Shown piece by piece: positions 3,831-46,266 of a stretch of 64,000 bases of DNA. The notes beneath the pieces were generated by a model. That model ran no database searches. It had not been told where the DNA came from and saw nothing but the letters and a program-made list of their open reading frames with translations. Numbering within the stretch: the first letter of the stretch is position 1; every line of letters begins with the position of its first letter. Source of the DNA: Halomicronema sp. CCY15110 (GTDB lineage Bacteria; Cyanobacteriota; Cyanobacteriia; Phormidesmidales; Phormidesmidaceae); NCBI RefSeq assembly GCF_016888165.1, contig NZ_JACSWC010000370.1, positions 1 through 64,000 of the forward strand, written 5' to 3'. The translations under genes were made by a program, and so were the position numbers.

Positions 3831-3983
3831 CGGGCTCCGGTGGGTCGTTCGCCTCTAGGCCAAGAGCGCCACCGCTGGAAACAAGCTGGAAAGTCCGCAA
3901 AAGCTGCGATCGGCCTTCCGTTGACGAAAGATTTCGCCTATGATAATTATTTGTGAATAAAACCGACCGTTTTGGAGAAGCTG

Positions 3984-4220
3984 ATGCCTCGTCATTGTGA
4001 TCTCACTGGCAAAAAGGCCAACAACGCCTTTGCAATTTCCCACTCCCACCGCCGTACCAAGCGCCTGCAAGAAGCCAATTTACAGTCCAAGCGGGTTTGG
4101 TGGCCCCAGGGTAAACGGTATGTAAAACTCCGCCTCTCGACTAAGGCGATCAAAACGCTGGAGAAAAAAGGTCTCAGTGCCATGGCTCGTGAAGCTGGCC
4201 TTGACCTATCGAAGTATTAA
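3984..4220 (+). CDS. rpmB: 50S ribosomal protein L28
   Basis: A 78-residue basic protein that begins [14 protein letters not shown], the standard bacterial L28 N-terminus, and carries the LQSKRVWW block typical of cyanobacterial and plastid L28. It belongs to the large ribosomal subunit near the exit site. The start is the ATG at 3984, preceded by GGAGAAG at 3974-3980; an in-frame TTG at 3972 would only add four residues and remove that spacing. It stands alone between two hairpin terminators, so it is probably a single-gene transcript. Confidence 0.97.
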
Positions 4221-5504: not shown

Positions 5505-5882
5505 ATGACTAACCGTGTACTTGGTATTTTTCCAAAACCTCCTGAAATGCAGGAAATGTCTCGCGTGTACGACCTGAAATCACGCCTGGATTGGGGTGAA
5601 CCGGCGCTGACGATTATTGATATTCGCGATCGCGCTTTGTTCAATGAGAGTCATATCATGGGCGCAATTTCTATGCCTATGGCTGAACTGCTGGAGCGCG
5701 TTCAAGCGGCTCTGGAATATGACCGCGATATTTATCTCTACAGCCACACTGACGAAGAAGCCACTACAGCGGCTCAGACGTTGCGCGATGCGGGTTACCA
5801 GAAGGTATCGGTTTTGCGGGGTGGGGTCGCCGCTTGGAAAGCCGCTAACTTTCAAGTCGAGACTGGCATGTCGGCGGTTTAA
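5505..5882 (+). CDS. Rhodanese-like protein lacking the catalytic cysteine
   Basis: A 125-residue single rhodanese domain. It has the CH2A-like TIIDIRDRALFNESHI block (about 36-51) and the conserved end VLRGGVAAWK. At the active-site loop, where active sulfurtransferases have Cys in the pattern YC-x4-[RG], this protein reads YSHTDEEA with Ser80 in the cysteine position. It is therefore unlikely to transfer sulfur and is more likely a binding or regulatory domain; cysteine-less rhodanese domains are known. The soluble protein has no signal peptide. Repeats upstream (5433-5476) suggest specific control. Confidence 0.85.
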   Translation: MTNRVLGIFPKPPEMQEMSRVYDLKSRLDWGEPALTIIDIRDRALFNESHIMGAISMPMAELLERVQAALEYDRDIYLYSHTDEEATTAAQTLRDAGYQKVSVLRGGVAAWKAANFQVETGMSAV

Positions 5883-5957: not shown

Positions 5958-6599
5958 TTAATGCTCAAAAACATTGCCATATTGCAGCAGGTCGAGGGTG
6001 ACTAAGGTGGGAATGCAAGCAAAGCATTCCGATGCCAGTTGCCCTCGACTTTCTCGTGTCAGCATATGAAGTAGCGATTGACGAATTTCGTGCAGAAACC
6101 GCACGTCATTAGCGGCATATCGTAGCTGGTCTTCCGAGAGGTTCATAACATTGCCCCAGTCGGAGCTTTGCTGAGTTTTGTCCAGTTCAACCCCAGTCAT
6201 TTCCCTGACCAGCTCTTTGAGGCCATGTCTAGGACTGTAAGTGCGGATCAGCTTGCTCGCGACCTTGGTACAAAAGATGGGATTCACATCAATTTCCAAG
6301 TGATATCGCATCGTTGCCAGGTCAAAACGGGCAAAGTGGAAAATTTTGGTGATACCTTTAGCTTCCATCAAGCGTTTCAAGTTAGGGGCGGCTTGCTGAC
6401 CCAGGTCGATCCGCACGACTGAGACATACCCGGCTTCATCACAAAGCTGCACTAAACAAAGCCGATCGCGCCAGGGCAGCAGACCCATGGTTTCAGTATC
6501 CACAGCGATCGCTGCTGCCGCCAGGTACCGCTCTAACAACTCATCCGAGAGGTCGCGATCGCACACCTCAAACATCTCTGGGGTTAACCCTTCACTCAC
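5958..6599 (-). CDS. RNase D-like DEDDy 3'-5' exonuclease
   Basis: A 213-residue 3'-5' exonuclease domain without the HRDC tail of full-length RNase D. The metal-binding set is present: D and E in VDTETMG (near 34-36), D in FHFARFD, and the ExoIII tyrosine and aspartate in [10 protein letters not shown]. Small stand-alone RNase D-type proteins are common in cyanobacteria and should trim RNA 3' ends. The GTG start at 6599 overlaps the trpB stop in a GTGA junction, implying translational coupling to trpB on the same mRNA. Confidence 0.9.
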
Positions 6600-43106: not shown

Positions 43107-45281
43107 TCAAAACACCGCCAAAATCAAAGGCAGCAAGGACTTACACACCGTCACCAAATTCGACGCCTCCGTCAGCGGCTCAGCGATCGCCTTCAAGTTC
43201 GCCGTCGCCCGCTTTGCCACTCGCTGCATCGCGTTTTCTTGGGGCTTGCTTCCAGCCTCCGCCAGCTTGCCCACTTCCCCCAGGGCTTCTTTTTTCTCGA
43301 TGTCGCTGAGTTCTGTCTCCGCTACAATGGCGGCTTGCAACTCCGTGAGCAACTCTTTCAGGCTGCGCTGATCGGCACTCGGGGCCGCGTCCGGCAGTTG
43401 GCTGATCTGCACCGTTACCTGACCGCTGAGTTCGCCCAGGTTGACGACATTGCCCTCCATGCTGCCCGTGTTGATAAAGCCACCGTCACCCGCATTAATG
43501 GGATTATTCATGTTGTTAATTTGAATAGACGACAGAAACTTGCTGAAGCCCAAAGCGACTTCTTTCACGTCCTCGGCTCGCTGCGTTTGCCCTTGCAGCA
43601 GCCCCTTGGTGTAGCCTGCTTCGAGTCCGATCTGATAGCCCTGATCCCAACTGCGCTCGACCTGAGCTTTATCGGTGCCGTCGGACACTTGCAGGGTCAG
43701 CAACACATCCTCGCCCTGCTTTTCCATGCCTTGAATGGACTCGCGGGTGATCTCAGGATTGTCAGCCATGACCTGCTCAAACGCGGCTTGAAATGCTTGC
43801 GGGTCAACCCCATTACGGATCAGGATTTGCACCGTGTCGAGCATTTCTTTGAAGAACTTCTCGAAGTCACCGGGTTGGAAGATCTTGTCGGGATTGTGGG
43901 GTCGCCGCTCCCGGTTGCCCTTGTCATCCGGCTCGGCTTTGAGGAAAACATACTCGCAGTCAATGTCTTTGAGGATGGTCGTCTCGTCAATGTTCCACGC
44001 TTCCAGGCAAGCTCCGGTCAGGTGCGCCCCCGTGAAGTCAGTGCCGACACATTGCGCATTGGTCAAATTCGCCCCGTGCAGTTCCGCTCCCTCCAGAGTT
44101 GCGCCGTTGAGGTTGGTTCCCTTGAGACGAATGCGGTGGAGTGTCGCCCCCGCTAAATTGACTCCCCGCAGGTCAGCATTGGTCAGGTCTTGGTCAACGC
44201 CATTGAGGGAAACCAGCAAATTGCGAACGCGGGGATCTTGCAGGTTACTGGTGCCGAGGCGGGCGTAATCTAATCCCTTTGTTTGATGCCAACGAACACG
44301 GTTTATGCAAGCTGGCGAGCCATCATGAGCAGCAAACCTTACATTTCTAAGGCTTGCCGATATAAAAGTTGCATTTGTCAAATCTGAACCATGGAAGGAA
44401 GATGCTCCAAATGCTGCTAAAGCTAAGGCCATCCTCCGAAGATAAGAATGTTCAAAATCGGGTTGAGTGATTTGGTGAGCGTTGTAGAAAGTGCCGCTCA
44501 TATGAAGTGCAAAAATCAACCAGAAAATCCATGAAAATACATGGCTATCTAGCTGAATAATTAAAGGTCTTAGACTACTTGCCGCTAACACAGCCCCACC
44601 ACAATAACCAAAGCCTGATAATATCCAACCTGATCTTCTTAAAGAAAAAACGTTGACCGAGATAGAGATTGAGCATGTCAATGCAAACAAGATAGAGGCT
44701 GATTGCGTCACAAGTAGGAAGGGCAAAACGGAAAAAGAATCGACGCTAAAGCCTTGACGTGTAACAAATACTGAGAACGCAACTATCCCATTTAAAGACA
44801 AGAGAAATAGAGCTCCACTAATTTGATAGGAACTAGGTAATGTCAGCATTGGAATACTTAGCATGAAAATTATCGAATGCATGAGTATGAGGAAAGCGTA
44901 TTCTGCTGCTGAAAATAGTTCTGTACCAAGAACTGGAGAAAAGATGAGGATAATTGGCAATAGGTAACTTGAAAGACTGGCAAGAGAATTAGTGAATACT
45001 AAAAGCCAGTAAAAAAGATGGTTTTGAACAAAGGTCACATCCTCACCTAAAAATGCCTTTCCCCCTTGAGACCGATTGAAATTTGCGGCGGTTAAATTAG
45101 TATTTATGAAAGTGGTACTTCGAATATCGGCTCCGGTGAAGTCGGCCCCTGATAGGTCGGCCCCACGAAAGTCGCAGCTGCGCAAGATAGTGCCGCGAAA
45201 GTCACGCTCACCAGCGGCGTAGAGGCGCAACACATCTTTGGCTTGGAGGCGCTGCCCGTGGTACTTGCCGCGTTCTGACAT
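43107..45281 (-). CDS. Membrane pentapeptide-repeat protein with conserved C-terminal tail domain
   Basis: A 724-residue mosaic. Residues about 28-72 are pentapeptide repeats (CDFRGADLSGADFTGADIRS). About 85-285 form roughly six hydrophobic helices. A second pentapeptide run follows (about 298-430, for example LRGVNLAGATLHRIRLKGTN). Then comes a coiled, charged region, and the tail has GGFINTGSMEGNVVNLGELSG followed by a helical domain (about 645-724) ending LLPLILAVF. This tail is seen at the end of other cyanobacterial pentapeptide proteins. DNA for the membrane part (about 44300-45110) is AT-rich: two sampled lines are 32% and 38% G+C, against 67% in a sampled 3' line. Function unknown. 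Its 5' end is partly duplicated at 45843-45990. Confidence 0.85.
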   Translation of the reverse strand: MSERGKYHGQRLQAKDVLRLYAAGERDFRGTILRSCDFRGADLSGADFTGADIRSTTFINTNLTAANFNRSQGGKAFLGEDVTFVQNHLFYWLLVFTNSLASLSSYLLPIILIFSPVLGTELFSAAEYAFLILMHSIIFMLSIPMLTLPSSYQISGALFLLSLNGIVAFSVFVTRQGFSVDSFSVLPFLLVTQSASILFALTCSISISVNVFSLRRSGWILSGFGYCGGAVLAASSLRPLIIQLDSHVFSWIFWLIFALHMSGTFYNAHQITQPDFEHSYLRRMALALAAFGASSFHGSDLTNATFISASLRNVRFAAHDGSPACINRVRWHQTKGLDYARLGTSNLQDPRVRNLLVSLNGVDQDLTNADLRGVNLAGATLHRIRLKGTNLNGATLEGAELHGANLTNAQCVGTDFTGAHLTGACLEAWNIDETTILKDIDCEYVFLKAEPDDKGNRERRPHNPDKIFQPGDFEKFFKEMLDTVQILIRNGVDPQAFQAAFEQVMADNPEITRESIQGMEKQGEDVLLTLQVSDGTDKAQVERSWDQGYQIGLEAGYTKGLLQGQTQRAEDVKEVALGFSKFLSSIQINNMNNPINAGDGGFINTGSMEGNVVNLGELSGQVTVQISQLPDAAPSADQRSLKELLTELQAAIVAETELSDIEKKEALGEVGKLAEAGSKPQENAMQRVAKRATANLKAIAEPLTEASNLVTVCKSLLPLILAVF

Positions 45282-45320
45282 GGGGGAGAGGGTAGTGGGA
45301 CGGTAAGAGAGTGGGATGGT

Positions 45321-45371
45321 GGGTGCCCAGCAAATTTTCTCTATTTAAGCCCAATTCTCAGAGCAAGGCTA
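45321..45371. repeat. Direct repeat copy A, leader of the pentapeptide gene
   Basis: 51 bp matching 45940-45990 with only two mismatches. On the minus strand it begins 40 bp before the pentapeptide ATG (45281), and similarity to the other copy continues, more loosely, into that gene's first 15 codons. The right end coincides with the stop codon of the DUF2442 gene. Confidence 0.95.
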
Positions 45372-45641
45372 CGACTGTTTCCTGATGGCTTCCGGTGAAG
45401 GTGCGCCGCGTAACAAGCCCGCTGTGCTGAGATCTTCGTCCAGTGCTTCCCAGTGCATACCATAGCCGCCGCCACAGACTTCCCACTGCTTTCGCTGGGC
45501 TGGCGTGGCGTTCAATAATCGGGGATACCAGACCAAAGGCACTGTAATAGTTCGCCCATCCATGAGGTCTACGCTGATGGTGTCTTCGGTGAAATGGACA
45601 TCTTTGACCCGCTCATCGATTTGAATCGCCAAACCATCCAT
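45369..45641 (-). CDS. DUF2442 domain protein
   Basis: A 90-residue protein with the DUF2442 pattern: VKDVHFTEDTISVDLMDGRTITVPLVWYPRLLNATPAQR and a final W-E-x-L-DEDLS block (MHWEALDEDLSTAGLL). This NE0471-like N-terminal fold is commonly encoded next to DUF4160 genes, in pairs suspected of being toxin-antitoxin-like. The frame overlaps the end of the DUF4160 gene by 29 bp, so the two are surely co-translated. Its stop codon lies in direct repeat copy A. No biochemical role is established. Confidence 0.88.
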   Translation of the reverse strand: MDGLAIQIDERVKDVHFTEDTISVDLMDGRTITVPLVWYPRLLNATPAQRKQWEVCGGGYGMHWEALDEDLSTAGLLRGAPSPEAIRKQS

Positions 45642-45858
45642 ACCAGGCCTCCAAAAACAGTTGCTGATGGTCTAAAACAAGCTTGCGTAGTTTGCGTAAT
45701 TCCTTGGGACTAAAGCCAATATTGTTAGCCAACTCTCCTGAATGTAACCAAAATTTAGCGGATGCACAGTCTCGATCAACATGAATATGAGGGGGTTCAT
45801 TAGGTTCATGACTGTAGAAATAAAACCGGTAAGGCCCAAGCTTTAATCCTGCTGGCAT
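45613..45858 (-). CDS. DUF4160 domain protein
   Basis: An 81-residue protein with the DUF4160 core YRFYFYSHEPNEPPHIHVDRD, then AKFWLHSGELANNIGFS and LRKLRKLVLDHQQLFLEAW. It is the usual upstream partner of DUF2442. The ATG at 45858 starts the conserved domain (MPAGLKLGPYRF). A longer frame from 45963 would begin inside repeat copy B and read through the pentapeptide relic, so it is rejected. The two-gene unit is bracketed by direct repeats. A toxin-antitoxin-like role is only suspected for such pairs. Confidence 0.88.
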   Translation of the reverse strand: MPAGLKLGPYRFYFYSHEPNEPPHIHVDRDCASAKFWLHSGELANNIGFSPKELRKLRKLVLDHQQLFLEAWYGWFGDSNR

Positions 45859-45911
45859 CTTTCTGATTTGGCTGGAAAGAGTTGACCGGGGTATTGGCGG
45901 CGATCTGACAT
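45843..45911 (-). pseudogene. Duplicated 5' fragment of the pentapeptide-repeat gene
   Basis: An ATG at 45911 opens MSDRRQYPGQLFPAKSER and stops after 22 codons. The intact gene begins MSERGKYHGQRLQAKDVL. The two match at M, S, R, Y, G, Q and AK, and the DNA is similar over about 45 bp. The matching leader (45940-45990 versus 45321-45371) precedes it at nearly the same distance. The fragment overlaps the DUF4160 start in another frame. It is a relic of the same gene's 5' end. Confidence 0.75.
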
Positions 45912-45939
45912 GGCGGGCGAGAGGGTAAGAGTGGGGAGT

Positions 45940-45990
45940 GGGTGCCCAGCAAATTTTCTCCATTTAAGCCCAATTCTCAGAGCGAGGCTA
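45940..45990. repeat. Direct repeat copy B, upstream of the DUF4160/DUF2442 pair
   Basis: Second copy of the 51-bp repeat, 619 bp from copy A. A shorter third match, GGCCCAATTCTGAG, is seen at 46029-46042 (compare AGCCCAATTCTCAG in both full copies). Confidence 0.95.
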
Positions 45991-46266
45991 TTGTTGCCGA
46001 CTTGTCAGGCACTTTTGTAAAGACGTCAGGCCCAATTCTGAGTAGAGTCGGCACCATCATTAAGCCTGTAGATGCCCAAAACTGTCGCTGATCTAAACAT
46101 TAGCGGTCAAATGAAGATTGCGTAGACCGCCAATCTTTATAGTCCAGCGCGATCGCCCTCTGGTGGCCGGGCCAAGTGGCACTGGTGGCGCGATCGCCCG
46201 TGGCTACAATCCCGCCCGATCCAGTTCTTGTTGCAGGGCTGGGTGCCGCGTGTGGTGCGATCGCGC

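Follow-up and report, generated by a model that had tools for sequence, protein, structure and literature searches.

Restriction-modification (R-M) systems and toxin-antitoxin (TA) pairs are both addiction modules. Among the described type II TA pairs made up of DUF4160 and DUF2442, DhiTA of Dickeya dadantii is active in D. dadantii and in E. coli and shows canonical autoregulation (PMC8198452). For the persistence module PEM of a Thermus plasmid, no transformants were obtained with a plasmid lacking the second ORF and transformants were obtained with one lacking the first (PMC12724237). Experiments on toxicity, neutralization and autoregulation have been published for these two pairs only. 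Insertion with a long and variable target duplication has been described for R-M systems (Nobusato 2000; Furuta 2010, as cited in PMC3874152 and PMC3031569); in the cases outlined in these two reviews, the inserted unit consists of the R-M genes only, lies between direct target copies of about 100 bp, and has neither a transposase nor inverted repeats. Long target duplications are documented for R-M systems, and the reviews, in their treatment of such insertions, do not report cases for TA pairs.

The locus described here lies within a 64,000-nucleotide stretch of the Halomicronema sp. CCY15110 genome (G000), the whole of which is referred to as the window. Reading along the minus strand, the order is copy A of a direct repeat, a 22-codon ORF, a DUF4160 gene, a DUF2442 gene, copy B of the repeat and a pentapeptide-repeat gene. 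The DUF4160 gene (45613..45858, minus strand, 81 aa) encodes a putative DhiT-like toxin (PF13711, 6.6e-21), and the DUF2442 gene (45369..45641, minus strand, 90 aa), which overlaps its 3' end, encodes a putative antitoxin (PF10387, 1.5e-25). The intact pentapeptide-repeat gene (43107..45281, minus strand, 724 aa, PF00805 at 4.1e-27) begins MSERGKYHGQ..., and the 22-codon ORF (MSDRRQYPGQLFPAKSERCQQD; 45843..45911, minus strand) is a truncated start of such a gene, shares 16 nt with the start of DUF4160 and has the same length and overlap in a congener, G001. Both repeat copies lead to an ATG, as the initial annotation had it; that at 45281 opens the real 724-aa gene, and that at 45911 is followed by a stop after 22 codons. 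The DUF4160/DUF2442 pair (45858-45613 and 45641-45369) sits between the copies with tight junctions and with hardly any inserted sequence beyond the two ORFs. The ORF list and a Pfam search gave no transposase gene between the repeats, and the repeat analysis showed the cassette ends to be free of inverted repeats. A classical transposon or insertion sequence was rejected on these grounds and because the duplication is of about 130 bp rather than short. On the copy A side no pentapeptide coding sequence was found beyond codon ~16, the homology ending before DUF4160. Since the arrangement is also present in G001, on a 1.7-Mb contig, it is not an assembly artefact. The locus is built of ordinary parts in an uncommon arrangement, which two species share.

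Both proteins score above the Pfam gathering scores, and their genes are adjacent and overlapping with DUF4160 first and DUF2442 second, the same Pfam pair and order as in DhiTA and the Thermus PEM (PMC8198452, PMC12724237). A DhiTA-like type II TA module is the most likely identity of the pair, and a TA function is predicted from this analogy. The locus differs from both described systems in being chromosomal, in that the stretch from the duplicated leader to the start codon contains no separate promoter region for the pair, and in its toxin, which scored 19.3 bits against the NCBIfam DhiT model, below the cut-off of 100; by sequence comparison, it is a distant relative of DhiT rather than a DhiT equivalog. 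Homologues of the cassette occur on plasmids. Across 38 DUF4160 homologues, H24, H26, K35, W37 and W72 are among the invariant residues. The AlphaFold model of the DUF4160 protein is good (pLDDT 84.7). A Foldseek search with it returned no match at E<=0.001 among solved structures, and its best VIA match (Z 5.6) was to ribosomal proteins at an unconvincing 4% identity, so that no toxin mechanism is assigned from structure. Sequence searches of the PDB gave no credible match for DUF4160 and uncharacterized matches (3k8r, 2x8n) for DUF2442, and PADLOC reported nothing for either protein.

The initial annotation described a 51-bp repeat with 2 mismatches. The repeat is real and its spacing of 619 bp stands, while its length was set too short: the core is 53 nt (45319-45371 and 45938-45990, 96% identity), and a gapped alignment extends copy B over 45237..45382 (146 bp) and copy A over 45867..45998 (132 bp), both on the minus strand. 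A gap of 8 bp separates the end of copy A from the start of DUF4160, and the core of copy B begins at the DUF2442 stop. Over the first codons the copies are 34/48 identical, i.e. 29% different. A genome-wide search found the repeat in G000 at this locus only, in its two copies, and in 143 genomes searched the leader core was present only in G000, in G001 and, at one weaker site each, in two more. An element resembling TTGGGCTTAAAT lies 5' of homologous pentapeptide genes in G003, G004, G011, G012, G032, G035 and G037, other genera included. The repeat, as judged from these comparisons, is the pentapeptide gene's own leader with its first ~16 codons, copy A being a duplicate of this segment and copy B a part of the intact gene. 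Since the TTGGGCTTAAAT element is conserved 5' of homologous genes in other genera, the repeat is no transposon end; since the leader element is kept at the homologues and the repeat occurs at a single locus, it is a property of the host gene and not of the module. A mobile-element end and a dispersed repeat were ruled out on the same evidence, and a known RNA element was dropped as a candidate after an Rfam scan of the repeat gave no match near the gathering score. Part of the leader is matched a third time 5' of copy A (46030-46042, in the region 45996-46052), inside what reads as a GCCGACT/AGTCGGC inverted repeat.

The arrangement of leader, cassette, leader and pentapeptide gene is present in one of five congeners (G001), and not in all relatives, which the initial annotation had named as the finding that would refute its reading. 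Protein identity between the two genomes is 94% for DUF2442 and 93% for DUF4160, and the aligned DNA of the cassette and leaders is 88.8% identical as against 83-87% for the syntenic block at 38.7-43.05 kb. The divergence of the cassette is similar to that of this adjoining block, and present-day mobility finds no support here. Synteny between the two genomes breaks upstream of copy A: the 46.3-55 kb block of G000 has its G001 counterpart at another place (around 1096600), and the gene upstream in G001 is found on contig C372 of G000. A comparison with relatives, proposed at the outset as a search for empty sites, yielded a partial answer. On contig C6 of G003 an orthologue of the pentapeptide gene, convergent with an AstE remnant, has a single leader and no cassette. 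We read this as an empty site, though its upstream neighbor is different. No relative examined has both flanks joined without the cassette, and in this the locus differs from the R-M insertions, the duplication event being here one that we infer.

The idea that the boundary repeats are ends of the module found no support, the repeat being the neighboring gene's conserved leader. The same repeats were not found around other DUF4160/DUF2442 pairs, and in the close pairs inspected in G028, G049, G017, G011, G034, G030 and G051 the DNA preceding DUF4160 is unrelated. A pentapeptide gene as a regular neighbor of the cassette was likewise rejected, as only two of 56 loci inspected in genome contigs had one. 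Contig C372 of G000 holds a second, distant DUF4160/DUF2442 pair (locus L183, 1494-1971; 49% and 44%) without a leader copy, directly upstream of a pentapeptide gene (2-1288). On the minus strand of G005 (locus L214, ~3880-4067), an apparent hydantoinase/oxoprolinase gene, a neighbor of the type also seen at the second G000 pair, is directly followed by a truncated DUF4160 gene (76% over 59 aa) that has no DUF2442 beside it; we take it for the decayed remains of a cassette from a different subfamily, which may occupy the same site as that pair.

Five informative sites in the 20 bp preceding the leader core unite the two copies within a genome, with none in favor of any other grouping, while in the first 16 codons eight sites unite the same copy across genomes and none unites the copies within a genome. 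Few as the informative sites are, this pattern of concerted evolution points to gene conversion between the leader copies within each lineage. Conversion is the simplest reading because selection on the core alone would not homogenize the non-conserved upstream bases separately in each genome. Both cassette genes are under purifying selection, with dN/dS values of 0.21 and 0.07. Between G000 and G001, dS was 0.154 for DUF4160 (45613-45858), 0.652 for DUF2442 and 0.522 for AstE; the low value for DUF4160 may reflect a mosaic history in which this stretch was exchanged more recently. The pentapeptide gene (43107-45281) is itself mosaic in comparison with that of G001 (locus L084, 4486-6729), with an N-terminus 74% identical and a middle much less so, and the C-terminus of the G001 protein resembles instead that of the pentapeptide gene on C372 of G000.

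The reading toward which we lean is that a TA pair inserted with a long target duplication, capturing a leader, and that the leader copies were later converted. A DhiTA-like pair would have entered at about codon 16 of the pentapeptide-repeat gene, before G000 and G001 split, and the leader with the first ~16 codons (about 130 bp) would have been duplicated at insertion, so that the neighbor kept a complete leader and reading frame; duplication and insertion would have been one event. The resulting order, upstream-T-cassette-T-downstream with a T of ~130 bp, is like that of the R-M insertions. It differs in that the module is a DUF4160/DUF2442 pair, with no R-M genes between the copies, and in that the target duplicated is a gene leader with start codons. 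Copy A lies almost directly against the start of DUF4160, and its captured leader therefore probably drives expression of the pair; translational coupling would be possible through the 22-codon ORF, which runs on past the start codon of DUF4160. The leader copies would then have been homogenized by gene conversion, each lineage separately. The 29% difference between the copies in the codons implies that the event is old, or that the fragment drifted. Insertion of a TA-like module by a duplication event, as the initial annotation had suggested, is on the evidence of the G003 site and of the presence in one of five congeners the best-supported reading; present-day mobility and a role of the repeats as module ends are not supported.

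Other histories could have left a similar structure. The starting point may have been a tandem pair of pentapeptide genes, or a partial tandem duplication affecting the 5' end, with the cassette later replacing the body of the upstream copy and sparing its leader and first codons. Paralogues with the same N-terminus and leader do occur several to a genome (for example in G012 and G003), and a difference of the size seen between copies A and B would fit an earlier duplication, but there is no remnant of a longer upstream gene, the homology stopping at the boundary 8 bp before DUF4160, and copy A resembles the gene at this locus more than any paralogue, with 34-35/45 matches to the start of its own gene as against 25-32 for the other pentapeptide homologues compared. 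We regard this order of events as possible, though on balance unlikely. Still less probable, in our estimate, is the integration by a single crossover, through the resident leader, of a circle bearing the cassette and a 5' piece of the pentapeptide gene. An identical structure would be expected from it, DUF4160/DUF2442 pairs are known on plasmids, and the concerted-evolution pattern suggests that recombination between leaders has taken place; on the other hand, no plasmid backbone lies between the repeats, and the search of 143 genomes with the leader core revealed no plasmid or other locus with both the cassette and a leader fragment. The rival histories differ in the empty-site alleles that they predict, and the genomes compared contain no allele that would tell them apart.

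Chance similarity, or a dispersed intergenic repeat that happens to flank an unrelated gene pair, would be suggested by the many TA cassettes in our survey (below) that are bracketed by apparently multi-copy intergenic repeats. Against this, the local alignment of copies A and B scored 160, with a maximum of 43 in 200 shuffles, only two copies exist in the genome, and the repeat covers the coding start of the neighbor and is common to G001. We give this explanation almost no weight, and single-locus occurrence in G000 and G001 excludes it.

A survey of 130 distinct DUF4160/DUF2442 pairs and 248 ordinary ORFs from the same loci was used to determine whether TA loci are bracketed by direct repeats, tight bracketing being defined as direct repeats of at least 50 bits at most 120 bp from both edges. 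Such bracketing was found for 11 of the 130 pairs and 2 of the 248 ORFs (Fisher 2.3e-4), and at a threshold of at least 60 bits for 8/130 and 0/248, the cut-offs having been chosen during exploration and the sampling of genera being uneven. The independent count is below 11, because the 11 include the window locus, its G001 counterpart and a tandem cassette duplication in G137 (L215, contig C28; DUF4160 at 113453-113680 and 114203-114430, 750 bp apart). Loci of another TA family, HicA, limited to the best-scoring ones, were tightly bracketed at the 50-bit threshold in 9 of 66 cases, equally often (Fisher p = 0.46), and bracketing as a DUF4160-specific feature was rejected. Only tight bracketing stands out; for loose spacing the excess over random intervals was weak (4 usable cases among 53 as against 17/629, a contig-end artefact left out).

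Most of the bracketing repeats recur in further copies or at other loci, several carry GCGATCGC, and most look like multi-copy intergenic repeat families, which weakens the generalization; the excess may mean no more than that cassettes lie in intergenic DNA rich in repeats. Gene ends that are clearly duplicated were found at the window locus, with G001, and at locus L141 from Acidobacteria, whose DUF4160/DUF2442 cassette lies between two copies (5520-5746 and 6292-6517) of a segment of ~225 bp comprising the 3' end of groEL and its trailer. In L138, from a sister MAG of L141, groEL lies upstream of DUF2442 in one copy, with no recognizable DUF4160. Loci L246, L267, L315 and L314 (DUF4160/DUF2442 and HicA) have bracketing direct repeats of 160-230 bp with no recognizable gene over them.

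It is tempting to speculate that small TA modules in general spread in a transposase-free manner through long target duplications, a host leader being captured as promoter and the gene spared, though we consider this rather doubtful. If it were true, such spread would have left its footprint in the excess of tight bracketing seen for DUF4160/DUF2442 pairs and HicA. A figure that can be tested is the ~8-14% of sampled TA loci that are tightly bracketed, as against <1% of ordinary ORFs. With a host leader duplicated, the neighboring gene left intact and the leader perhaps reused, the locus would illustrate how a TA pair may settle in a chromosome without a transposase.
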